Source: a virus. From it: a stretch of 28,053 nucleotides of DNA. The stretch lies in IMG/VR virus record IMGVR_UViG_3300043446_003355, positions 1-28,053 of that record; one strand, 5' to 3'. The position numbers and the translations under genes are program-made. How positions within the stretch are numbered: position 1 is the stretch's first letter; each line of letters begins with the position of its first letter. Under the pieces are notes generated by a model. That model saw only the letters and a program-made list of their open reading frames with translations. It was not told the DNA's origin and searched no databases. Of this stretch, positions 5,314 to 28,053 are shown piece by piece.

Positions 5314-6300
5314 TTAACAGTGAGCTGCGATTCTACTGCCATGGAAGTAGAACTTGAAGTCGTAGACACGACATTCTGTTTCTTTTGTAATAGCTTCAAC
5401 AACTTCTTCGCGGCGATCCTTTGTTACATAAAACAAAAAGAAACCTCCACCACCAGCGCCGAGTAGTTTGCCGCCGAGAGATCCTGCATCTATAGCTTTG
5501 CTATAGATCGTATCGAAGTAATCCTGCGTGATCTCACTGACGAGTCCCTTCTTTTCCATCCATGCTTCGTGGAGTAGAGCGCCGAACGAATCGGTGTCGC
5601 CTTTCATCAGCAACTTAACACCCTCATACGCCTTGTCACGCGAGCTACGAACAAGATTGAACTTATCCTTATCACCCATCGCAGCTTGTTGTTTTTGAAG
5701 AATACTGTTAGCAGATCTCCCGCGACCACTATAAACCAACAGTAGATTGTCCTCTAAACGATTGAACGCTTCATGACCGATGCGAATTTCGCGTACATTC
5801 ACATCGCCATCTTTCATAAACTCAAAGATGTTCATGCCACCATACGCAGCTGCAAACTGATCCTGCTTACCGACAGGATATCCGCACTTATCCATTTCGA
5901 TATGACAGGCAATGTCAGCAAGGTAACGCTTTGACGCGACCTCCCACTTGGTGCTAGCAAGAGAGTTTACCAACCCAACAGTGAACGCTGATGATGAACC
6001 AAGACCTGAACCCTTCGACAAAATGTCAGAAATTGAAGCGATCGTCACTTCCTTCGAAACATTAAAATACTTCAACGCTTCCTTGGTAATCAAATGCTGC
6101 ATCTGCTCCACATCTGGGGTCTCTTCAATAGTGTCGTACATGATTTTGACGCCCAGATGTGGAGTCTTATGAACACAGACATAAATGAATTTGTCGATAG
6201 TACAAGACAGCGCCGCGCCCTGTTCCTTTTCATAGAACGATGGCATGTCACTACCACCAGAGAAGAAACTAATACGCAGCGGTGTTTTGGAAATAATCAT
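5314..6300 (-). CDS. hddA: D-glycero-D-manno-heptose 7-phosphate kinase-like GHMP kinase
   Basis: 328 residues, a normal length for the family. GHMP motif 1 is near the start (TPLRISFFSGGSDMPSFYEK, 6-25), motif 2 GSGLGSSSA is at 97-105, GKQDQFAAAYGG at 144-154, and motif 3 KLLGAGGGG at 278-286. The TPLRISFFSGGSD start and the GKQDQ block are those of HddA rather than galactokinase. The family phosphorylates D-glycero-D-manno-heptose 7-phosphate at C1 to the alpha-1,7-bisphosphate. It shares the operon with transaldolase, GmhA, GmhB and a nucleotidyltransferase, which supports heptose as substrate; a fucokinase-like role is less likely. It overlaps the glycosyltransferase by one base and is the last gene of the operon. 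Confidence 0.9.
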   Translation of the reverse strand: MIISKTPLRISFFSGGSDMPSFYEKEQGAALSCTIDKFIYVCVHKTPHLGVKIMYDTIEETPDVEQMQHLITKEALKYFNVSKEVTIASISDILSKGSGLGSSSAFTVGLVNSLASTKWEVASKRYLADIACHIEMDKCGYPVGKQDQFAAAYGGMNIFEFMKDGDVNVREIRIGHEAFNRLEDNLLLVYSGRGRSANSILQKQQAAMGDKDKFNLVRSSRDKAYEGVKLLMKGDTDSFGALLHEAWMEKKGLVSEITQDYFDTIYSKAIDAGSLGGKLLGAGGGGFFLFYVTKDRREEVVEAITKETECRVYDFKFYFHGSRIAAHC

Positions 6301-7854: not shown

Positions 7855-8592
7855 TTAGCAGTGAATTTTAAATCCAGAACTGGCAGCATCATTGTAAAAC
7901 ATCTGCACAGTTTCAAGTGAATACTGATTCAAGTTTTTACCAAACGTCTTCATCTTATCTATCATTGCTGGTGGCATAGTGATAATGTCGCAACCACTAC
8001 GATCAGCTTGGATATAATTGAAAGGCTCGCGGCAAGATGCCCAAAGGAACTCGAGCTTTGTATTGCTGTTCTTATAACGCTGATAGTATCCAGTTGCGAA
8101 CTTAATCATTTCTTCTGGATCCATACCAGCATCAGCAATACGACCAGCGAAAATAGAAACAATGCTTGGTACAAAATGATTTAGGTTATCCACAACTTCC
8201 ATAATTTGCTGCTGAGTAAACACTGCAGTCACGTTGCACTTGACGCCACTATCAGACAACATCTTGTATGCAGGCGCAGTAGAAATACCAGTAGTCGTTG
8301 TGACAGGAATCTTGATATAAACATCGTAGTCGTATTCTTTAGCCCAATCATTAATCTTCAATGCCTGTTTAGTCATTGTCGGAAGATCATCAGCGAACAC
8401 TTCGAGACTCAGTGATGTTCCTGGGCGATTAGTAGCAAGGTGCATGATAGCACCACGAGCAAAAGACTCATAGTCGACAATACCAGCTTGTTTCATAAGA
8501 GTTGGGTTCGTAGTAAATCCAACAATCTTTTCGTTTTTGGCAGCTTCGGCGATACCGTTAAAGTCCGCGCCATCAGAAAACAACTTAACCAT
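7855..8592 (-). CDS. talC: Transaldolase, TalC-like
   Basis: 245 residues, slightly longer than the usual 215-225 of TalC/FSA-type enzymes. The Schiff-base lysine is K94 in VYIKIPVT (91-98). GFTTNPTLMKQAG (25-37) is the phosphate-loop start of the family, and NVTAVFTQQQ and SIFAGRIADAG follow. Transaldolase moves a three-carbon unit between sugar phosphates; one product is sedoheptulose 7-phosphate. Cyanophages carry a related talC to redirect host carbon. Here the neighbours use sedoheptulose 7-phosphate (GmhA) instead of photosynthetic intermediates, so the likely role is substrate supply for heptose synthesis. It overlaps gmhB by eight bases. Confidence 0.93.
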   Translation of the reverse strand: MVKLFSDGADFNGIAEAAKNEKIVGFTTNPTLMKQAGIVDYESFARGAIMHLATNRPGTSLSLEVFADDLPTMTKQALKINDWAKEYDYDVYIKIPVTTTTGISTAPAYKMLSDSGVKCNVTAVFTQQQIMEVVDNLNHFVPSIVSIFAGRIADAGMDPEEMIKFATGYYQRYKNSNTKLEFLWASCREPFNYIQADRSGCDIITMPPAMIDKMKTFGKNLNQYSLETVQMFYNDAASSGFKIHC

Positions 8593-9124
8593 ATTCGTGT
8601 AACTCCTTGATCAGTAGGCATGCCTGTAGTACATCAGAACAGATATAATCTGGTTGGATATGTTCATATTCGGGAGGAGAGTGATATACATCACCAATGT
8701 ATATAGTGCTCAAATGACTACGTCTACCAGCCACTATATCTTTCCAACGATCGCCAATCATCCAGCAATCTCTACGATGTATTTTATGTTTTTTCAAAAG
8801 AAATTCTATCATACCATTGTTAGGTTTATAGAACTTGGCGCCTCTGTCGAAAGCGCAAATAACTTCTTCGATACCCAGCCAATTTTTTAACATCCGCGTC
8901 ATCAAACGAAGATCTTCTACTGGCAATTTACCATCGTTTACGTCTGGCTGATTAGTAACCACAAAAACATTATAGCCTAATTCTTTAGCTATGTCAACTG
9001 CTTGTTTTGCATCTCTCGTGAATCGAAACTCATCTACTGACCATGGCGCAGTTAGCACTCCGTCATGAAGCGCTAACTCGTTTAATACGCCATCGCGATC
9101 AAAAAATATAGCTTTTTTTACCAC
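8585..9124 (-). CDS. gmhB: Heptose bisphosphate phosphatase-like HAD protein (GmhB-like)
   Basis: 179 residues. HAD motifs: FFDRDGVLN with D9 and D11, VVTNQPD for motif II, KPNNGMIEF for motif III, and MIGDRWKDIVAGR for motif IV, all of the HAD-IIIA histidinol/heptose phosphatase type. GmhB removes the C7 phosphate from the 1,7-bisphosphate. Classic GmhB carries a zinc-binding Cys/His loop before the KP motif; here the stretch ICAFDRGAKFYKP has only one cysteine, so zinc is probably absent. Such zinc-free HAD-IIIA enzymes exist, and the substrate may differ. It overlaps gmhA by seven bases. Confidence 0.85.
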   Translation of the reverse strand: MVKKAIFFDRDGVLNELALHDGVLTAPWSVDEFRFTRDAKQAVDIAKELGYNVFVVTNQPDVNDGKLPVEDLRLMTRMLKNWLGIEEVICAFDRGAKFYKPNNGMIEFLLKKHKIHRRDCWMIGDRWKDIVAGRRSHLSTIYIGDVYHSPPEYEHIQPDYICSDVLQACLLIKELHEYG

Positions 9125-9705
9125 TTTGTATTTTTAATTTGAAGTTTCGGATTAGAGACTAAGCTATGCCAGATAACTGCTTGAAATGCTTCGCTGTGGG
9201 GAGTGATGCGTTCAGGAGCGATCGGTGGGACGCAAACACAAACGTCTGCCATCTTGTAGGTGTAACCATCGTTGCGACCTACGATGCCAAGCACAGTGCC
9301 ATCTTTAGAACGAGCGTACTTGATAGCCTTGATCAAACCAACAGAAACATTCTTTTCTTCGTTACCACCACCTACGGAGAGAACGAACAAAGCGTCTTTG
9401 TAGCTAAACCTGCTGACTCGAAGATATTCTTCAAATATTGTATCGAATCCTTCGTCATTTGTTCGCGCAGTAATTTCTGATGCGTTATCTGTAGGCGCAT
9501 AACATTCGATGCCACAGAGCTTACGTAAATCGTTGACCATATGAGAGGCATTGCCAGCGGAGCCGCCGACTCCCAAAATAAATACGCGTCCTTCGCTGAC
9601 ATCTCTGACTGTAACGAGTGCATCGGCTAACCTTTCGACTGCAGTAATATTCATCTGCTGTGCAATAAGCTGTACTTCTTGGAAAAATGATTCACTAAAT
9701 GTCAT
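9118..9705 (-). CDS. gmhA: Sedoheptulose 7-phosphate isomerase (GmhA-like)
   Basis: 195 residues, the normal GmhA length (about 192). SIS-domain signature: FILGVGGSAGNASHMVNDLR at 42-61, CGIECYAPTDNASEITARTN at 64-83, and SVGGGNEEKNVSVGL at 110-124. GmhA turns sedoheptulose 7-phosphate into D-glycero-D-manno-heptose 7-phosphate, the first dedicated step of heptose synthesis. In the operon it follows a nucleotidyltransferase gene and precedes gmhB, a standard pairing. The catalytic Glu and His of the family probably fall in the DNASEITARTNDEG and ERITPHSEAFQAV stretches. It overlaps the nucleotidyltransferase by four bases. Confidence 0.92.
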   Translation of the reverse strand: MTFSESFFQEVQLIAQQMNITAVERLADALVTVRDVSEGRVFILGVGGSAGNASHMVNDLRKLCGIECYAPTDNASEITARTNDEGFDTIFEEYLRVSRFSYKDALFVLSVGGGNEEKNVSVGLIKAIKYARSKDGTVLGIVGRNDGYTYKMADVCVCVPPIAPERITPHSEAFQAVIWHSLVSNPKLQIKNTKW

Positions 9706-10103
9706 CGCATACGACTCCTCAACTCAGTAGAGCTATACTTGTGTTTTCTATTATTATAGACAATCTGAATACCACGCTTTTCACAGATATCCTGACCTGT
9801 TAAGTATGTATCACTGTACTCTTCACCAACAAAACGAACATCAATTTTTTCAACAGCAAGTAAATTGATTAGATCAGTTTCTGTTTCGTATGGGATAATT
9901 TTATCTACAAACTTGCAGCCTTCGAGCTGCAAGTATCTTTCGTATACTGATTGAATCGGCTTATTCTTACCAGCTCGATCAATGGAGGGATCAGTGTGAA
10001 GACCTACGATAAGATAATCACACTGACTAGCACATTCACGCAGCATTGCGACATGTCCAGGATGGAGCAAGTCGAACGCGCTACAAGTAAATCCTACAAT
10101 CAT
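9702..10103 (-). CDS. Cytidylyltransferase-fold nucleotidyltransferase (HldE C-terminal/TagD type)
   Basis: 133 residues, one nucleotidyltransferase domain. Motifs: GFTCSAFDLLHPGH at 4-17 with the HxGH signature (H14, H17), an NKPIQSVYERYLQLEGC segment, and YSSTELRSRM near the C-terminus, matching the family's Ser/Thr-containing motif. HldE C-terminal domains activate heptose 1-phosphate with ATP, while TagD uses CTP and glycerol 3-phosphate; this sequence fits between them. Given the neighbours, the likely product is ADP- or CDP-heptose, but an HddA kinase makes the alpha anomer normally used for GDP-heptose, so the nucleotide is uncertain. It overlaps both neighbours by four bases. Confidence 0.85.
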   Translation of the reverse strand: MIVGFTCSAFDLLHPGHVAMLRECASQCDYLIVGLHTDPSIDRAGKNKPIQSVYERYLQLEGCKFVDKIIPYETETDLINLLAVEKIDVRFVGEEYSDTYLTGQDICEKRGIQIVYNNRKHKYSSTELRSRMR

Positions 10104-14315: not shown

Positions 14316-14873
14316 TCAATAAAAATCAACGATCTCATCTGCGATGCCATACTTAACTGCTTCCTTGGCAGTGAGCCAAACGTCTTCAGGTGGAAGCAAA
14401 TACTTACGGATATCTTTTTCCGACAACCCAGTGCAACGTTTGTAGTGTTCAACGATGCGTGTCTGTGTGTTGTTGAACTCTTTAACTCGAGCCATCAGCT
14501 CATGGTCTTTGCCCCACGAACCCCAGCTATATTGGTGTGAAAGAATTGCTGTATTGCGAGTAATAAATCTCTTACCCTTTTGACCAGCAATAAAAGTCAT
14601 TAAACCACAGCTGGCAATCTCACCAAGTCCATAAGTGTATATAGGAACCCTGGAACCCTTAATTGTGTCAATAAGAGCAAATGCTGAAGCAACATCACCA
14701 CCAGGAGAGTTGATAATAAACTTCATCCATGCTGGTTTCTTTTTCATAAGATTACGTTCAAGAATGAACGCTATGGCATCCGCTGTAGAGTCAGCGTTGA
14801 AATCTTTATAGAACATGTAGTAGTGATGATCTTCGATACTAGGAACTTCAGGCTTGTCGATCTTCACGTTCAT
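14316..14873 (-). CDS. clpP: ClpP-like protease
   Basis: 185 residues, close to bacterial ClpP (about 195-207). The catalytic triad is intact: S88 in YGLGEIASCGLM, H113 in AILSHQYSWG, D164 in PPEDVWLTAKEAV. The INSPGGDVASAFALID strand and helix are typical. Phage ClpP copies may cut host or phage proteins, for example in head maturation or takeover; no Clp ATPase is in this window, so it would depend on the host one or act alone. It has its own leader and a promoter-like element (14921-14948) and heads the row of genes down to 11408. Confidence 0.92.
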   Translation of the reverse strand: MNVKIDKPEVPSIEDHHYYMFYKDFNADSTADAIAFILERNLMKKKPAWMKFIINSPGGDVASAFALIDTIKGSRVPIYTYGLGEIASCGLMTFIAGQKGKRFITRNTAILSHQYSWGSWGKDHELMARVKEFNNTQTRIVEHYKRCTGLSEKDIRKYLLPPEDVWLTAKEAVKYGIADEIVDFY

Positions 14874-16283: not shown

Positions 16284-16359
16284 TGGTGCTCGCGGAGGGA
16301 CTCGAACCCCCGATAAGACCGTTATGAGCGGTCGGCTTTGGCCACTAAGCTACACGAGC
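16284..16359 (-). tRNA. tRNA with CAU anticodon (Met elongator or Ile2)
   Basis: 76 bases including an encoded CCA (16286-16284). All arms fold: acceptor GCTCGTG/CGCGAGC, anticodon stem GACCG/CGGTC around loop CTCATAA (anticodon CAU), T-stem GGGGG/CCCTC with TTCGAGT. The anticodon stem lacks the three G-C pairs of initiators, so it is elongator Met or lysidine-modified Ile. Its 5' 38 bases overlap the end of the ClpP-fold gene at 16322. Confidence 0.93.
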
Positions 16360-16729
16360 GTACACCTAACTGGATAAGCTGTTTTCCAGTTAGCGTTTTA
16401 AACTCTCTTTCGAGAGAACCAAGTTTTTGTTGAACTGCTATCGGATACATGTTGAACAAGATCTTAGTTTCTCTTTCAGCAATATGCTTTGAATCCTCGT
16501 AATAAGCAGCATGAAATTTCAATACCGAATGTGGATATACGCAAACATTAGGTAAACTCAGTGCCATCGTGCAAGCGGAACGACAATTTATTAAAGCGAC
16601 TCGTGTTCCGCTAATACGGTATTTATTCATACGAAGCATGTATTCGTAAAATTCCCCACCAGAATCATCAACGATAGTAACGATAGCTGGTGGGGTGTTT
16701 TGTATCAATTCTGGATTAAAGAAATCCAT
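16322..16729 (-). CDS. ClpP-fold/COG3904-like putative serine protease
   Basis: 135 residues. The core AIVTIVDDSGGEFYEYMLRM (15-34) is a ClpP/crotonase-fold strand and helix, followed by VALINCRSACTMAL at 44-57 with S51 in the C-x-SAC position and VLKFHAAYYEDS at 69-80 with H73. This C-x-SAC / FH-A pattern is that of COG3904-type periplasmic-protease-like proteins. No Asp partner is certain and no signal peptide is seen, so activity and location are open. The last 12 codons and the stop are formed by the tRNA gene at 16284-16359. It overlaps the stop of the BI-1 gene (TAATG). Confidence 0.7.
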   Translation of the reverse strand: MDFFNPELIQNTPPAIVTIVDDSGGEFYEYMLRMNKYRISGTRVALINCRSACTMALSLPNVCVYPHSVLKFHAAYYEDSKHIAERETKILFNMYPIAVQQKLGSLEREFKTLTGKQLIQLGVRSCSLVAKADRS

Positions 16730-17427
16730 TACTCTTTCTTTTCACCCATAATTTGGAGAAGGCTGACGTAGATATTGATGAAGTTGATATAAAGATTCAG
16801 CGCGCCAGTCACGCCAGCTTTTTCCATTTCTTCATCATACAACTCGTCATAAACTTCCTTCAATTCCTGCGTGTCGTACGCTGTAAGACCAGTGAAGATC
16901 AGAACAGAAATACAGCTGATAACAAAAGTCATCATTGAACTTTGAAGGAAAAGGTTAACTAAACCAGCAATAACTAGACCAATGACGCCCATCATCAAGA
17001 ACGAGCCCATGCTAGTCAGATCGCGCTTCGTAGTGTAACCATAAATCGAAGCAGCGCCAAACGTAGCAGCTGTAATGAAGAATACATTGACAATGCTACC
17101 GAGCTTGAAGATCATAAAAATGAAACTCAAACTAATTCCCATCGCAGCTGCGAATGTGAACATGTAAGCTCGAGTCATTGTCAGCGACATTTTAGCTTGA
17201 AAGAAAGCATATGCCAAAGACATAGCCAGTGGGGTGAAAATAGCAACCCACTTGAATGGCGTTCCCCAAATGAGCTGCATTGCGATTGGGCTCATGTTAA
17301 TCATAATCGCAAACAACCCACTAATCGCAAGAGCGAGAGTCATGTGGTTGTATACGCCAAGCATAAACTGACGCAAACCTTCGTCGTACTGAAGTCCAGT
17401 CTTTTCTACCTTATCTGTATAAAACAT
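16729..17427 (-). CDS. Bax inhibitor-1/YccA family membrane protein
   Basis: 232 residues, the normal length, with seven hydrophobic spans starting at LALAISGLFAIMINM. The family signature is seen in the YDTQELKEVYDE segment (loop after span 6) and in YINFINIYVSLLQIMG at the end, with the conserved Asp-rich turn. YccA-type proteins sit in the inner membrane; in E. coli YccA is a substrate and modulator of the FtsH protease. A phage copy could protect phage or Sec proteins from FtsH or affect membrane leak, both inferences. AAGGAGGT precedes the ATG. It lies nine bases after the DUF458 gene. Confidence 0.93.
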   Translation of the reverse strand: MFYTDKVEKTGLQYDEGLRQFMLGVYNHMTLALAISGLFAIMINMSPIAMQLIWGTPFKWVAIFTPLAMSLAYAFFQAKMSLTMTRAYMFTFAAAMGISLSFIFMIFKLGSIVNVFFITAATFGAASIYGYTTKRDLTSMGSFLMMGVIGLVIAGLVNLFLQSSMMTFVISCISVLIFTGLTAYDTQELKEVYDELYDEEMEKAGVTGALNLYINFINIYVSLLQIMGEKKE

Positions 17428-22795: not shown

Positions 22796-22814
22796 TAAAA
22801 AAGAGGGGATGAAT

Positions 22815-23102
22815 ATGGACGTAAATTCTTGGTTTAAATTAGTAGCAGACGTAGGTTTCCCAATAGCTGCAGCCTGTGCTGGTGGCTATTTTGTTTTTCT
22901 TACAATGAAATTTATTCTGGCTGGAGTTATGAGTTCTGTACAAGGTCTTAGCGGAATCATTACTGCCCTCGATAATCGTGTTAAAACAATGAACCATGAC
23001 GTTATTCGTATCGACACTCTAGTTTCTAATGCTATGGGTGTTAAGCCAGATATTGACCGTATCGCTCGCGCAGACGGTAAGAACGACGCAAGGAGAGACT
23101 AA
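22815..23102 (+). CDS. Single-span membrane protein, holin/YvrJ-like
   Basis: 95 residues from the second ATG (22815), chosen because AGGGG lies six bases upstream; the ATG at 22809 abuts that site. It begins MDVNSWFKLVADVGFPIAAA, with one hydrophobic span (about 12-38, GFPIAAACAGGYFVFLTM), then a coiled-coil segment (ITALDNRVKTMNHDVIRIDT) and a charged tail. The layout, GFP-x-A near an N-terminal span followed by a short coiled coil, resembles YvrJ and class-III-type holins. With the next gene it forms a paralogous pair on the opposite strand to all others. The stop overlaps the next ATG (TAATG). Confidence 0.72.
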   Translation: MDVNSWFKLVADVGFPIAAACAGGYFVFLTMKFILAGVMSSVQGLSGIITALDNRVKTMNHDVIRIDTLVSNAMGVKPDIDRIARADGKNDARRD

Positions 23103-23443
23103 TGGGTGACATTGCACAACTAATCTCTAAGTACGGTTTCCCAATCGTTGCTGCTGGCGGTATGGGCTATCTTATATATTATGTCTGGATCTGGGCTACT
23201 CAGCAAGTCAAGCCTGTTCTTTCCGACGCTAACAAAGTATTGATTGCTCTCATCGACCGCATTCGCATGCTAGACAACGACCTCATTCGTTTGAACCAGA
23301 AGGTGAATATTGTTCTTATGCTACGTGAAATGCAACAAGATGAATTACTAGCAAAAGCTAGCGAGTTCCGAAAGAATGACGAGTTGACCAAAGCGGAACC
23401 AAAGCAGGAAACCGCTAAGAGCGAAGAAAAGAAAAGCAAGTAA
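23102..23443 (+). CDS. Paralogous single-span membrane protein
   Basis: 113 residues beginning MGDIAQLISKYGFPIVAAGG. The YGFPIVAAGGMGYLIYYVWI span aligns with its neighbour's VGFPIAAACAGGYFVFLTM, and LIALIDRIRMLDNDLIRLNQ with its coiled coil, so the two arose by tandem duplication. A longer Lys/Glu-rich tail (KAEPKQETAKSEEKKSK) distinguishes it. A holin/antiholin pair is one reading, since such pairs are often duplicated; a scaffold or spanin-like partner is another. It ends ten bases before the stop of the convergent cyclase gene, with no terminator visible between them. Confidence 0.72.
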   Translation: MGDIAQLISKYGFPIVAAGGMGYLIYYVWIWATQQVKPVLSDANKVLIALIDRIRMLDNDLIRLNQKVNIVLMLREMQQDELLAKASEFRKNDELTKAEPKQETAKSEEKKSK

Positions 23444-23453
23444 CAGTAGTATC

Positions 23454-25511
23454 TTACTTACTGGTAGCACGATAAATTCCATCCCAATGATAGTCGAGGT
23501 TCGCGTTGCGTAATTCAGCGATGCGTTCCTCCATCATATGGTAGTAATAACTTAGCTCGCCATCAAATGCCTTTTCCAATACCTTGATATATTCCAGTGC
23601 CTTGTCCCAATGCTGGCGACGGTAGTGAAATAGAAACTCATTATGGCTTTTACGATATACGCGATTGATTTGCTTATCAGCAACTACCGTGTATATCTTT
23701 ACTCCTTGTGATTTTCCTTTAACAGCGATTTCATCGAGCTCGATGAGATTATAGAATTCTTTAACAAGCTCTGCCGTTCTTTGACCGAGGATAATTCTAA
23801 CGCCGTATGGCTTTGATTGTCCTTCGAGTCGCGAAGCAAGATTGACAGAGTCGCCCAGGCAAGTATAGTCGAAACGTTGACTACTTCCCATATTACCCAC
23901 CACAACAGAACCAGTATTAATACCCAAGCCCATTCCAAATGCAGGCACTCCTTCTTTGGCAATTTCTTCATTAAACTTATCTAAGTCGCCAAGCATCGCT
24001 AGTCCTGTAGCAACTGCATTTTTAGCATGGTCAGCGTCGTCGAGTGGTGCATTCCAGAAAGCCATCTGTGCATCACCAATGTACTTATCAAGTGTGCCGT
24101 TGTTCTCAAGTATCTTAGCAGTCATCGCTGTCATATAGCGATTCATTATTTCCGTAAGACCTTGCACATTAGCGCCATAGTGCTCAGAAATAGAAGTAAA
24201 ACCACGAACATCCGTAAACATAATTGACAGCTCACGGGTCTCTCCCCCGAGTTTAAGTAGCTCTGGATTCTTTTGTAGTTTCTCAACCAGCGCTGGTGAT
24301 AGATAGGTGCCGAATTGTTTTTTAATCTGTTGTTTCAGGCGGAACTCGCGAGCAAAGTTATTGAATACAAGATGAGCAAACGTAAATGAACCAGCCAGAA
24401 CTAAATATGATACATCCCATAGCTGCATGTACTCTGTGAACATATAATAAGAACCGTAAATCGATGCAGCTATAAACGTAACATAGACAGGAACGGTGTA
24501 CTTCACAGATGTCTTTGGGAGGATTATCACTATTAGACATAATATGGTACTCAATAGCGCTACCTCTAGGTATCTGGCTATTGATAAACGACTGGCGGAA
24601 TCCCCGTTAACCATCGTCTGAATTGTTGCTGCCTGAATATCGTGCGCCCACTTCTCGCCGACTGGCGTAGCAATAATTCCGCCAACACCTTCAATCGCAA
24701 TACCTAGAACAACAACCTTACCATTGACGCGCTGATCAATCTGCGTTGCTTCTATTCTTTCGAAGCTCGTGTTCCAAGTCGCCCAGATTCTTCCTCTTTC
24801 ATCGATCGATATCGGCGGGAAAGCAGGTATGCGGACGAACTCTGTTCCAATTTCACTTGTCTTAATTTGGTAGCTAGGGTCTCCCGCAGCGACTCTGAGC
24901 GTTTCCAAAGGTAAAGAAGGATAGAGGCTCCCAGCAATATTGACAAGTAGAGGGATACGGCGCACCACACCATCCACTTCAGGAACAGTGGCGACAATTC
25001 CCACACCTGCAGCGGCTTCGGCATGCTCACGTATTGGACGTATACCACCATTCCAACGATAAACATAGCTAGCAGGATCAACAGGACCGATCGCAGCAAA
25101 CCCGCGACGTACTGCATCTGGTGGAATATTTTGAGTAGTTGGTGTTTGAGCGATGACAACACCATCAAGAACTTTTGCCAATTCATTGTCGCCTCCTGCC
25201 CTATCCTTTTCCGAGAATAGAATTGGCATTGCAATTACTGCTGCGCCGTTTTGTTTTAGTTTGTTGATTGTTTTTGCTACGTCGCGGCGATCAAATGGAT
25301 ACTGACCAAACTCTTTTACCGATGGCTCGCCGAAATCTACTATGATAATTTCTTCGGACTTCTTAGGCTCCAAAGATGTAATCAGAAAGTCAAATGTTTT
25401 AAGTTGTAATACTTGTACAGGGGTAGGATTCCAAACATAGACCAGCACCAGCAAAGCTGCTACGATAAATGCTGCCAGTCTGCTTGTTAGGAGAATGCCG
25501 AGCTTTTCCAT
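23454..25511 (-). CDS. CHASE2-domain class III adenylate cyclase
   Basis: 685 residues. An N-terminal span (about 8-27) leads to a CHASE2 extracytoplasmic sensor (about 33-305, with LQLKTFDFLI, DFGEPSVKEFGQYPFDRRDV and VVVLGIAIEGVGG), then three spans (about 313-385) and a cyclase domain (about 425-610). Catalytic residues are all present: metal Asp D434 (FTDVRGFTS) and D480 (YIGDAQMAFW), the adenine-specifying Lys K476 (TLDKYIGD), Asp D548 in FDYTCLGD, and N557/R561 in SVNLASRLEG. It should make cAMP in response to an outside signal. A C-terminal 70 residues look TPR-like. It overlaps the small curlin-like gene by one base (TAATG). A cyclase is very unusual in a phage. Confidence 0.95.
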   Translation of the reverse strand: MEKLGILLTSRLAAFIVAALLVLVYVWNPTPVQVLQLKTFDFLITSLEPKKSEEIIIVDFGEPSVKEFGQYPFDRRDVAKTINKLKQNGAAVIAMPILFSEKDRAGGDNELAKVLDGVVIAQTPTTQNIPPDAVRRGFAAIGPVDPASYVYRWNGGIRPIREHAEAAAGVGIVATVPEVDGVVRRIPLLVNIAGSLYPSLPLETLRVAAGDPSYQIKTSEIGTEFVRIPAFPPISIDERGRIWATWNTSFERIEATQIDQRVNGKVVVLGIAIEGVGGIIATPVGEKWAHDIQAATIQTMVNGDSASRLSIARYLEVALLSTILCLIVIILPKTSVKYTVPVYVTFIAASIYGSYYMFTEYMQLWDVSYLVLAGSFTFAHLVFNNFAREFRLKQQIKKQFGTYLSPALVEKLQKNPELLKLGGETRELSIMFTDVRGFTSISEHYGANVQGLTEIMNRYMTAMTAKILENNGTLDKYIGDAQMAFWNAPLDDADHAKNAVATGLAMLGDLDKFNEEIAKEGVPAFGMGLGINTGSVVVGNMGSSQRFDYTCLGDSVNLASRLEGQSKPYGVRIILGQRTAELVKEFYNLIELDEIAVKGKSQGVKIYTVVADKQINRVYRKSHNEFLFHYRRQHWDKALEYIKVLEKAFDGELSYYYHMMEERIAELRNANLDYHWDGIYRATSK

Positions 25512-25813
25512 TAGTATTGATTAACGTAGTATGGGCTACTCGCGCATGCGCTCGTGCATGTGATGTTTACGTCGATCGTCTTATTAGTAGAACCAGATTG
25601 ATTGATCGTAACAGGAATGTCGTTACCGTTTGTTGTAACAGTAGCAGTATGATAGCCAGTACCCGACTGATTGATGATAATGTTTTGAAAACTGCCTGTG
25701 ATATTGACAGTCGCATTGTTCATCGTTGATGTAGTGGTGAGTGTTTGTGCATTAGCGAGACCGCTGAAAACTACGAAAAACGATAAAAACGACGTGTATA
25801 CTAATTTTCTCAT
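25511..25813 (-). CDS. Small exported curlin-like protein
   Basis: 100 residues. The signal peptide MRKLVYTSFLSFFVVFSGLA ends near ANAQ. The mature part has curlin-like repeats: VNITGSFQNIIINQSGTGYH and DIPVTINQSGSTNKT, each with an I-x-Q-x-G core, and a Cys pair (TCTSAC) near the end. This is the spacing of curlin repeats (S-x5-Q-x-G). It is short, so it may be a nucleator or minor subunit (CsgB-like) rather than the main fibre. It sits between the FecR-like gene and the cyclase, with a one-base overlap on the cyclase side. Confidence 0.75.
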   Translation of the reverse strand: MRKLVYTSFLSFFVVFSGLANAQTLTTTSTMNNATVNITGSFQNIIINQSGTGYHTATVTTNGNDIPVTINQSGSTNKTIDVNITCTSACASSPYYVNQY

Positions 25814-25814
25814 G

Positions 25815-26933
25815 TCAGTTACTCTGCTTTATTGTTATCGTTGTTGAACCTGCATGATTAACCATCTGCTTCACAGTAATGCCTTCCTGAATGATATTCA
25901 CCGTACCAGCTCTTGTAGTTTGCATGCTTACTTCAGCAAAGCTACTGACTGTTTCGCGATATAATGTTAGCGTTTCATTTTCAACAAAATATTTTAAACC
26001 ACTCGCCTGATTGTATTTCGGCAGTAGTTGCCCGAACTCATCAAGAGCGTTATCTAATAACTGGGTGGCAATAACATCCATAAAATTATACAGATAGTCA
26101 GTGCCAAGAAAATCTCTATCAAGTTTATTAAACTCCTTAAGAAGATCGCGTTCTAGCTCATCATATTTCAAATGATCTTTTTTCAGCAAATCTTCATCAA
26201 GAAAGTTAAACGCTTTCTTTTCTTCCCTTCTGCTCGTGTCTGCCACTACTTTTGGCGGAGTAACGATCAGCATGTTATTTATTTGATTGAGATCTAGATT
26301 AAGAATACCAGCGCTTTGTGGGCGAGTCATATTAGTATCAACTGTTACTGCCTCAAATGCTTTTGTTAGCAGTATAGTTCCCATATCAGTCGTGACACTG
26401 ATCTTGCCAGTGACGCAATCTTTGTCGATGTTTTTCCAACCAGCTGGGCAAGAAGGAAGAAGAATAATCTGCGAGCGACCTAGCTCGTCGACTGTACTTG
26501 AGAAGTCAGTACCACGAACACCAATCGTAGCAGTTGGTGTTGTAACAACTACTTGTTGAGGATCATTCTTTGCGATCTGACCGCTGGCGTATTTGACTGT
26601 ACCAAGAGCCATCTTGATACCGAGCTTGCCAGTTTTCTTTTCGCCATCATATACAAAATTATCAATAACAAGTTTAGAATGTTCTGTTATTTGTACACGA
26701 GTATCATCTTGAAATGTGATACCAGCTTTAGCATTAGCTGTAGTAATAACATCTTGCATCTCGATCCCCAGCTGTGTTTGACTGGGGATCGTTTCCGCCT
26801 TGCGTTTTATTTCAGTGGGTCCAGTTTGTTCTGTTACAGTTCCAACCGCAGCATTAAGGGTGGTTGGACTTAATAGTAACAGCGTTGCTAGAACCAGTGA
26901 TTGAAGTAACAATCTTACTATCAACTGTTCCAC
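25815..26933 (-). CDS. FecR-domain protein with curlin-like C-terminus
   Basis: 372 residues, starting at GTG (26933); a TTG at 26924, with AAGG eight bases upstream, is an alternative start. A signal peptide (LLLQSLVLATLLLLSPTTL, cut near NAA) leads to a FecR domain: VGTVTEQTGPTEIKRKAETI, then FQDDTRVQITEHSKLVIDNF and VVVTTPTATIGVRGTDFSS, whose TPTATIGVRGTDF is the family signature. The middle (about 235-300) is a charged helical region, and the last 35 residues (VNIIQEGITVKQMVNHAGST then TITIKQSN) look like curlin repeats. FecR proteins relay envelope signals, and FecR-CHASE2 neighbours are a known pairing. Its first 80 bases overlap the curlin gene. Confidence 0.85.
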   Translation of the reverse strand: MEQLIVRLLLQSLVLATLLLLSPTTLNAAVGTVTEQTGPTEIKRKAETIPSQTQLGIEMQDVITTANAKAGITFQDDTRVQITEHSKLVIDNFVYDGEKKTGKLGIKMALGTVKYASGQIAKNDPQQVVVTTPTATIGVRGTDFSSTVDELGRSQIILLPSCPAGWKNIDKDCVTGKISVTTDMGTILLTKAFEAVTVDTNMTRPQSAGILNLDLNQINNMLIVTPPKVVADTSRREEKKAFNFLDEDLLKKDHLKYDELERDLLKEFNKLDRDFLGTDYLYNFMDVIATQLLDNALDEFGQLLPKYNQASGLKYFVENETLTLYRETVSSFAEVSMQTTRAGTVNIIQEGITVKQMVNHAGSTTITIKQSN

Positions 26934-27546
26934 CTTGTCTAAAATCTACTACGTTCATTGCGCCATAAATTGTCAAATCGACTTGATGACCAACGCTAGT
27001 GGATGCTGTTCCAGTTCCAGCCTGTACTACGTCAACAATGTTACCTGAACCACCAGCAATATCAACAACGTTAGTAGTACCAGCAACGCTAGATGCAGTG
27101 CTGTTAAAATTAACAGTGTTGTTATCTGATGTGATAGACAATGTTGTATTAGTTAAGCTGTCAGTGTTTTGAGTGATTTGGTTGCCATCGCCAGTTACTG
27201 TTTTAGTAATCGTTGATGGTCCGCAAGCGCCACCATTAGCGCCGCACTCCAAGTTAATGATATTAGAACTGCCAGTTGTAGTTGATGTGATAGTAGCACC
27301 ATTGCCATTAACAGTCATGTTAGTGACATTGTTGTTACCGATCTGTTGAATTGTTATTGTATTATTATCGCCTGTAAATGTACTTCTTGAAGTTGAAGTA
27401 CCTATCGCGTTGCCTGCACCTGTTTGCGTAATTGAAATAGCTGAACCATCTCCAACTTGGTCCATATATACCGAGTTCGCCGCATAAGCATTTTGAAACA
27501 TAACCAAGAATGATAAAAGTGCCATCATTCTGGTGAGTAGTTTCAT
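26854..27546 (-). CDS. Curlin-repeat protein (CsgA-like amyloid subunit)
   Basis: 230 residues. The signal peptide is MKLLTRMMALLSFLVMFQNA, cut near YAA. The mature chain is Gly, Asn, Thr, Ser, Gln-rich with irregular repeats carrying the curlin I-x-Q-x-G-x-x-N pattern: ISITQTGAGNAIG, ITIQQIGNNNVTN, and VDVVQAGTGTASTS, then VVDFRQGGTVDSK. About eight repeats can be drawn. Two cysteines (LECGANGGACG) in the middle are unusual for curlin. Such proteins are secreted by CsgG and form amyloid fibres. Its C-terminal 26 codons overlap the FecR-like gene. It starts directly after the CsgG stop. Confidence 0.85.
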   Translation of the reverse strand: MKLLTRMMALLSFLVMFQNAYAANSVYMDQVGDGSAISITQTGAGNAIGTSTSRSTFTGDNNTITIQQIGNNNVTNMTVNGNGATITSTTTGSSNIINLECGANGGACGPSTITKTVTGDGNQITQNTDSLTNTTLSITSDNNTVNFNSTASSVAGTTNVVDIAGGSGNIVDVVQAGTGTASTSVGHQVDLTIYGAMNVVDFRQGGTVDSKIVTSITGSSNAVTIKSNHP

Positions 27547-28053
27547 TTACTTCCCTTTCTTTTTCTCTTTTGTTTTAAACGACCAGAGCTTTTTCTTTGC
27601 TCCCTCTTTGATCATATCAGCGACTGCTGCCTCTATGGCAATTCTTACAGCATAGGTTGTAGGTTCGTTGATGCTGTTACCAGCTTCAAACTCCACAGAT
27701 CTTGTACCAGCATCGACAAATTTAAATACGTTAGCACTCACGCCAGTACTGAAAACAGTCTTGGTTGCACCAGTTGAGAGTAGAATTTCGCCAGTGTTAA
27801 CCGAAATCAATCTAAGCATGACAGTAACTTCATCTTTTCTGTACTCTTGTGTGGCGCCGATACCGAGATATCGAGCACCAATACCACCAGAGCCAAGATT
27901 GCTGTCATAACCAACAATGCCACCATCAATCATAACACCTGCTACAATCAGCGGTGTCAGTGGCTTTGCTTCTTCTTTCTCGTATACTTCGCGCTGACTA
28001 CGAATCAGCTGACGCTCTTTAACAAGATTGTCAAGACCAACACGCTCAACTGG
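27547..28053 (-). CDS. csgG: CsgG-like outer-membrane secretion channel, 5' end missing
   Basis: 169 residues remain in frame and the gene continues past the right edge. Visible text: VERVGLDNLVKERQLIRSQR, then a MIDGGIVGYDSNLGSGGIGA segment followed by RYLGIGATQEYRKDEVTVML, RLISVNTGEILLSTGATKTV, and EPTTYAVRIAIEAAVADMIK. These match the CsgG C-terminal half: the GYDSN-x-x-SGG-x-GARY-x-GIG block and V-x-x-GEIL. CsgG forms the nine-fold outer-membrane pore that exports curli. The end KTKEKKKGK is basic. The gene abuts the curlin start with no gap. The lipoprotein signal and any CsgF partner would lie outside the window. Confidence 0.93.
   Translation of the reverse strand, partial: PVERVGLDNLVKERQLIRSQREVYEKEEAKPLTPLIVAGVMIDGGIVGYDSNLGSGGIGARYLGIGATQEYRKDEVTVMLRLISVNTGEILLSTGATKTVFSTGVSANVFKFVDAGTRSVEFEAGNSINEPTTYAVRIAIEAAVADMIKEGAKKKLWSFKTKEKKKGK

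Follow-up and report, generated by a model that had tools for sequence, protein, structure and literature searches.

The right-hand end of the window, i.e., the complete linear IMG/VR record of 28,053 bases analyzed here, carries a curli gene block that ends in a membrane-sensor cyclase and is a further copy of the marine-phage combination of curli genes and cyclase already published in 2022. As the best explanation, to which we assign roughly even chances of being correct, we propose a pelagiphage-type curli module of alphaproteobacterial origin that would be expressed late and in which a FecR-curlin protein would feed a CHASE2 sensor making cAMP.

The ORF list and Pfam searches show that five minus-strand ORFs fill this end, coding for CsgG, a curlin-repeat protein, a FecR-domain protein, a small curlin-like protein, and a CHASE2 adenylate cyclase. 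Their positions agree with those given in an earlier sequence-only reading, whose gene identities, operon-like order, and phage context were also borne out by the ORFs, Pfam matches, and motif tests. The ORF ends abut or overlap: 1 nt is common to the cyclase and the small curlin, and the FecR ORF, which begins at a GTG and whose true start is uncertain, shares 80 nt with the curlin ORF. Scans for sigma-70 promoters and terminators inside the block yielded matches at chance level only. Three of the proteins belong to PHROGs families that have no annotated function, namely phrog_20175 (CsgG), phrog_37870 (FecR), and phrog_35576 (cyclase). The remainder of the window is clearly of phage origin, with genes for NrdA/NrdB, PhoH, a T4-type RNase H, an exonuclease, and two tRNAs. 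A chimeric assembly, raised earlier as a possible source of the block, was rejected because the junction between the cassette and nrdA/nrdB recurs in two IMG/VR contigs from other data sets, with identities to the window across the junction of 91.7% over 9.1 kb (L004/L026) and 92.5% over 7.7 kb (L005).

The csgF/csgG cluster of phages was described in 2020 (PMC7029224) and the version of phage Melnitz in 2022 (PMC9004378). In the same year, pelagiphages of the podo and myo types were explicitly described as carrying T8SS modules that include FecR and adenylate cyclase, and ocean metatranscriptomes provided evidence of expression (Wittmers et al., PMC9599517). The sequence-only reading had regarded the coupling of curli genes to FecR and a CHASE2 cyclase as unfamiliar, but this description and the identical order csgF-csgG-curlin-FecR-curlin-cyclase in Pelagibacter phage HTVC008M and Methylophilales phage Melnitz show otherwise. 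Window and close kin together exhibit this order on a phage genome, placing the block among the pelagiphage-type T8SS modules. A megablast search of the window against named phages returned no match, and in a tblastn search of 50,697 phage records, HTVC008M and the four Melnitz isolates were the only ones with matches to all three of cyclase, FecR, and CsgG (38-55% identity). Scans of IMG/VR identified 22 relatives of CsgG and, for the cyclase, at least 597, the best 80 of which were kept. Recurrence was counted among those viral loci that were recruited by the cyclase alone, from these best 80 of at least 597, and offered at least 7 kb of upstream sequence (n=41). The genes csgG, curlin1, and FecR were present in all 41 and always in the same order, csgF in 37, and curlin2 in 34. 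Consequently, the gene order recurs in phage and metagenome databases, as the sequence-only reading had asked, and the cassette is not confined to bacterial chromosomes but occurs in dozens of viral contigs. It was also found on a viral contig of 285304 bases (L084), where, as in related lineages, FecR/curlin2 and the cyclase do not adjoin but are set apart by additional sequence.

The module of HTVC008M (gp014-gp019) resembles that of the window and its kin in the six-gene order, the T4-like myophage carrier, and the lack of csgE (PMC9599517). However, identity between the proteins of the window and their HTVC008M counterparts amounts to only 41-55%, GC content is 41% in the window as compared to 34% in the HTVC008M stretch, the second curlin comprises 100 instead of 441 aa, and no histidine kinase was recognized upstream in the window's kin. 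A literature search retrieved no prior report of a late promoter before csgF, a conserved curlin-like tail of FecR, or the cassette in alphaproteobacterial contigs.

The csgG gene for the outer-membrane curli pore (27547-28053, minus strand) runs off the contig at its 5' end; the remaining part matches Pfam CsgG at model positions 56-207 (E 3e-39) and is 55% identical to CsgG of HTVC008M. The missing start is supplied by the kin L004 and L005, which encode a full-length, lipoprotein-type relative of 96% identity with the lipobox-like start LASC. In both, csgF sits directly upstream of the full-length csgG and thus just past the window's end. The expectation that csgF or csgE might be found upstream of position 28053 is therefore borne out for csgF, while csgE, which encodes the gate of the curli system, was detected in none of 11 related phage records. 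Its absence has also been reported for the pelagiphage T8SS module (PMC9599517).

A fiber subunit of the CsgA/B type is represented by the curlin-repeat protein curlin1 (26854-27546, minus strand), which carries a signal peptide. Its match to the Pfam curlin repeat has an E value of 0.004 and lies under Pfam's curated cut-off; it contains four [hydrophobic]x[hydrophobic]xQxG motifs where 0.18 would be expected from shuffles (P<0.0005), and an alignment of 27 sequences revealed invariant Gln, Gly, and Asn positions. The AlphaFold model (mean pLDDT 85.5, pTM 0.79) shows short beta strands throughout the chain after the signal peptide and gave no significant match in a comparison with the PDB. 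The second, small curlin-like protein of 100 aa (25511-25813, minus strand) has no Pfam match; it was recognized by a curlin2 profile and by two motifs as compared to 0.06 expected from shuffles (P=0.001).

An indication of when the module is expressed was obtained from the region preceding csgF. The exact T4 late-promoter core TATAAATA is located just before the gene, at a distance of at most 45 nt, in 17 of 52 distinct viral loci including HTVC008M; these 17 are related and do not represent independent events, though they span several lineages. In contrast, the core is found in 0 of 156 control windows farther upstream, with about 0.8% expected from shuffles, and is also absent from the windows placed in front of those other cassette genes that were tested. 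The match is thus exact in only a third of the loci. Nine more loci show a 7/8 match, among them the window's closest kin with AATAAATA; the corresponding site of the window itself lies off the contig, so that the motif is read in relatives. The motif points to a putative T4-type promoter from which the whole unit is likely expressed late in many members. Late expression would be more consistent with a function in the final phase of infection than with an early exclusion of superinfecting phages.

Curli contributed by phages are documented, and the published proposals for their function disagree, naming clumping, shielding, a lysis pore, or uptake. The choice among these is narrowed by the late-promoter motif before csgF, the conserved tail of the FecR protein, and the pairing of FecR with CHASE2 in bacteria. 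That the module forms true curli, which clump neighboring cells for a subsequent infection cycle ("sibling capture") or protect the cell against other phages, was proposed in PMC7029224 and PMC9599517 and has a real, though less than even, chance of being right. Indeed, pore, chaperone, and fiber genes form a complete set. However, no clumping was seen in Melnitz-infected cells (PMC9004378), late expression would fit poorly with early superinfection exclusion, and this explanation by itself does not account for the cyclase. From AlphaFold models, the Melnitz study proposed that the CsgG(F) pore now times lysis as a pinholin or gated pore, with the curlin, FecR, and cyclase genes as regulators or plugs (PMC9004378); we consider this unlikely. 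A late promoter would suit such a release-phase function, and the failure to find a csgE gate in the 11 related phage records also speaks for it. However, a pore alone would have no use for the curlin-repeat and FecR genes, which are present in 41 of 41 contigs and keep curlin motifs. In addition, Melnitz was stated to be devoid of csgA/B (PMC9004378), yet its record annotates two curlin-repeat proteins within the cluster.

The cyclase gene (23454-25511, minus strand) encodes a CHASE2 domain (Pfam E 3.8e-37) and a class III catalytic domain (Guanylate_cyc, E 9.9e-21). All six catalytic residues of class III adenylate cyclases, i.e., two metal-binding Asp, the substrate-binding Lys and Thr/Asp, and the transition-state Asn and Arg, are present (D434, K476, D480, T550, N557, and R561), and the closest solved structures are adenylate cyclases. 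From these features, the protein is predicted to be a cAMP-producing membrane sensor. Almost all viral relatives of full length retain the catalytic residues. Melnitz has the six-gene order in common with the window and its kin but differs in its cyclase, in which, as in three MAG-binned contigs, the transition-state Asn that is intact in the window is replaced by Ser; because of this exchange, cyclase activity may be dispensable in some carriers. A search for a phage-encoded cAMP receptor found no cNMP-binding domain in any of the 11 related phage records, nine of which are IMG/VR contigs of 139-285 kb, and any cAMP would therefore have to act on a host protein.

The FecR-domain protein (25815-26933, minus strand; Pfam FecR, E 1.3e-11) starts, by inspection, with a signal peptide and is thus classed as secreted. 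Its last 45 aa form a curlin-like tail, with three motifs on a looser pattern as compared to 0.22 expected from shuffles (P=0.0005), exemplified by TTITIKQSN and NNIYIKQN. A Gln in this tail (Q370) is invariant over 31 aligned viral FecR proteins, which are 32-94% identical to that of the window. The Caulobacteraceae cassettes described below share the ending in the form of TVINVTQD or TIINVTQD, and no such tail was seen among the inspected FecR ORFs of FecR-CHASE2 pairs that lack curli genes. An assignment of the tail to the Pfam curlin repeat was rejected since Pfam detects this repeat in none of the 31 viral members; the tail is consequently defined by motif, position, and conservation. The structure model is of low confidence (pLDDT 61, tail <50), and its FecR domain weakly matches FecR/PupR-type signaling domains. 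An uptake pore for iron compounds or cofactors with FecR as its iron-linked regulator, suggested in PMC9599517 on account of the FecR name, is highly improbable, as the FecR domain is the sole well-supported Pfam match in the 31 viral proteins with no anti-sigma region reported, the phage cassette contains no recognizable sigma factor or TonB receptor, and similar FecR-domain proteins adjoin CHASE2 sensors in bacteria. Given its make-up of signal peptide, FecR domain, and curlin-like terminus, we do not regard the FecR protein as an anti-sigma factor.

A scan of bacterial genomes with the FecR alignment revealed that the coupling of FecR and cyclase is not unique to viruses. The full cassette was found on a 705-kb contig of Hyphomonas (TMED17) and on two contigs of Caulobacteraceae MAGs, in each case with ordinary bacterial flanks. 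Gene set and order are shared with the window and its kin; the differences are that the alphaproteobacterial cassettes lie on contigs with bacterial genes and that those of Caulobacteraceae have two curlin genes before FecR and none between FecR and the cyclase. In contrast, FecR or CHASE2 genes occur in 0 of 19 ordinary Caulobacterales-type curli loci within the fetched regions, and the coupling therefore belongs to a sub-lineage. FecR and CHASE2 genes also occur together without curli, as 19 of 71 other bacterial FecR loci have a CHASE2 gene within 4 kb. A known example is the BiofilmReg operon of Burkholderia, in which a secreted FecR-domain protein is likewise encoded beside a CHASE2 receptor; this operon was linked to biofilm formation, and a mutant of its response regulator lost biofilm (PMC5192318). 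It differs in encoding a FecR-LysM protein, a CHASE2 histidine kinase, and a response regulator, and has no cyclase, curlin tail, or csg genes. As the whole cassette is present in alphaproteobacterial contigs, the FecR-cyclase coupling was probably inherited by the phages as a cassette in which two bacterial themes had been joined.

In the cyclase tree, all csg-linked cyclases form one clade (support 100/100), within which the three cellular alphaproteobacterial sequences constitute one group (100/100) beside the viral cyclases. Support for the split between the viral clade and the cellular group is only 91/53, which leaves the direction of transfer tentative. The cassette was additionally observed on contigs binned in MAGs of Bacteroidota, Planctomycetota, and Rhodobacteraceae (L113, L106, L108, and L110-L112), which look like mis-binned phage contigs. 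L113, from a "Sphingobacteriales" MAG, was rejected as cellular evidence since its flanks are phage genes. The others were set aside, as their cyclases fall among the viral ones where placed; L106 was not placed in the tree.

Returning to the late curli module with a cAMP sensor, we suggest that phages obtained it in one piece from a curli lineage of Alphaproteobacteria that already included the FecR protein and the CHASE2 adenylate cyclase, and that in many relatives it would be transcribed late as a whole from the T4-type promoter before csgF. CsgG and CsgF would form the outer-membrane pore exporting the curlin subunits. The FecR protein, located in the periplasm or at the fiber base, would touch both the fiber and the periplasmic CHASE2 domain, and the cyclase would thereby signal, through cAMP within the infected cell, how export or assembly is proceeding. 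Any benefit might consist in cell clumping, surface shielding, or release timing. Points against this explanation are the lack of a cNMP-binding domain in the 11 phage records, the Ser in the Melnitz cyclase, the inexact late-promoter motif in most loci, the low confidence of the FecR model, the absence of clumping in Melnitz-infected cells, and the weak support for the split between viral and cellular cyclases. The proposal of the sequence-only reading that amyloid export is joined to a cAMP sensor is a plausible hypothesis. A more specific version, which we hold only tentatively and consider rather doubtful, is that FecR-curlin acts as a fiber-sensing adaptor whose tail would associate with nascent amyloid or with the CsgG pore and whose FecR domain would bind CHASE2, converting export into a late cAMP signal. 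The ligands of CHASE2 domains were called unknown in PMC5192318; if true, the adaptor model would name a ligand class for CHASE2 in general, namely secreted FecR-domain proteins.

Several other features were observed in the window. Between the cyclase gene and nrdA, two tandem, related small proteins with hydrophobic N-terminal stretches are encoded on the plus strand (22809-23443); both belong to phrog_18771, one shows a weak holin-like match, and L004/L005 contain similarly sized ORFs on the opposite strand. A gene cluster reminiscent of nucleotide-heptose biosynthesis (5314-6300 and 7855-10103, minus strand) comprises an HddA-like kinase, a GmhA-like isomerase, a GmhB-like phosphatase, an HldE-type nucleotidyltransferase, and a transaldolase, with all matches below the NCBIfam equivalog cut-offs, and may serve LPS or surface modification. 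A membrane protein of the Bax-inhibitor-1 family is encoded at 16729-17427 (minus strand; Pfam Bax1-I, E 3.8e-55). Finally, the minus strand harbors a ClpP-type protease and a short ORF overlapping the tRNA-Met gene (14316-14873 and 16322-16729); the short ORF, whose sole match is phrog_19619, reads like a second, diverged ClpP-like protein.
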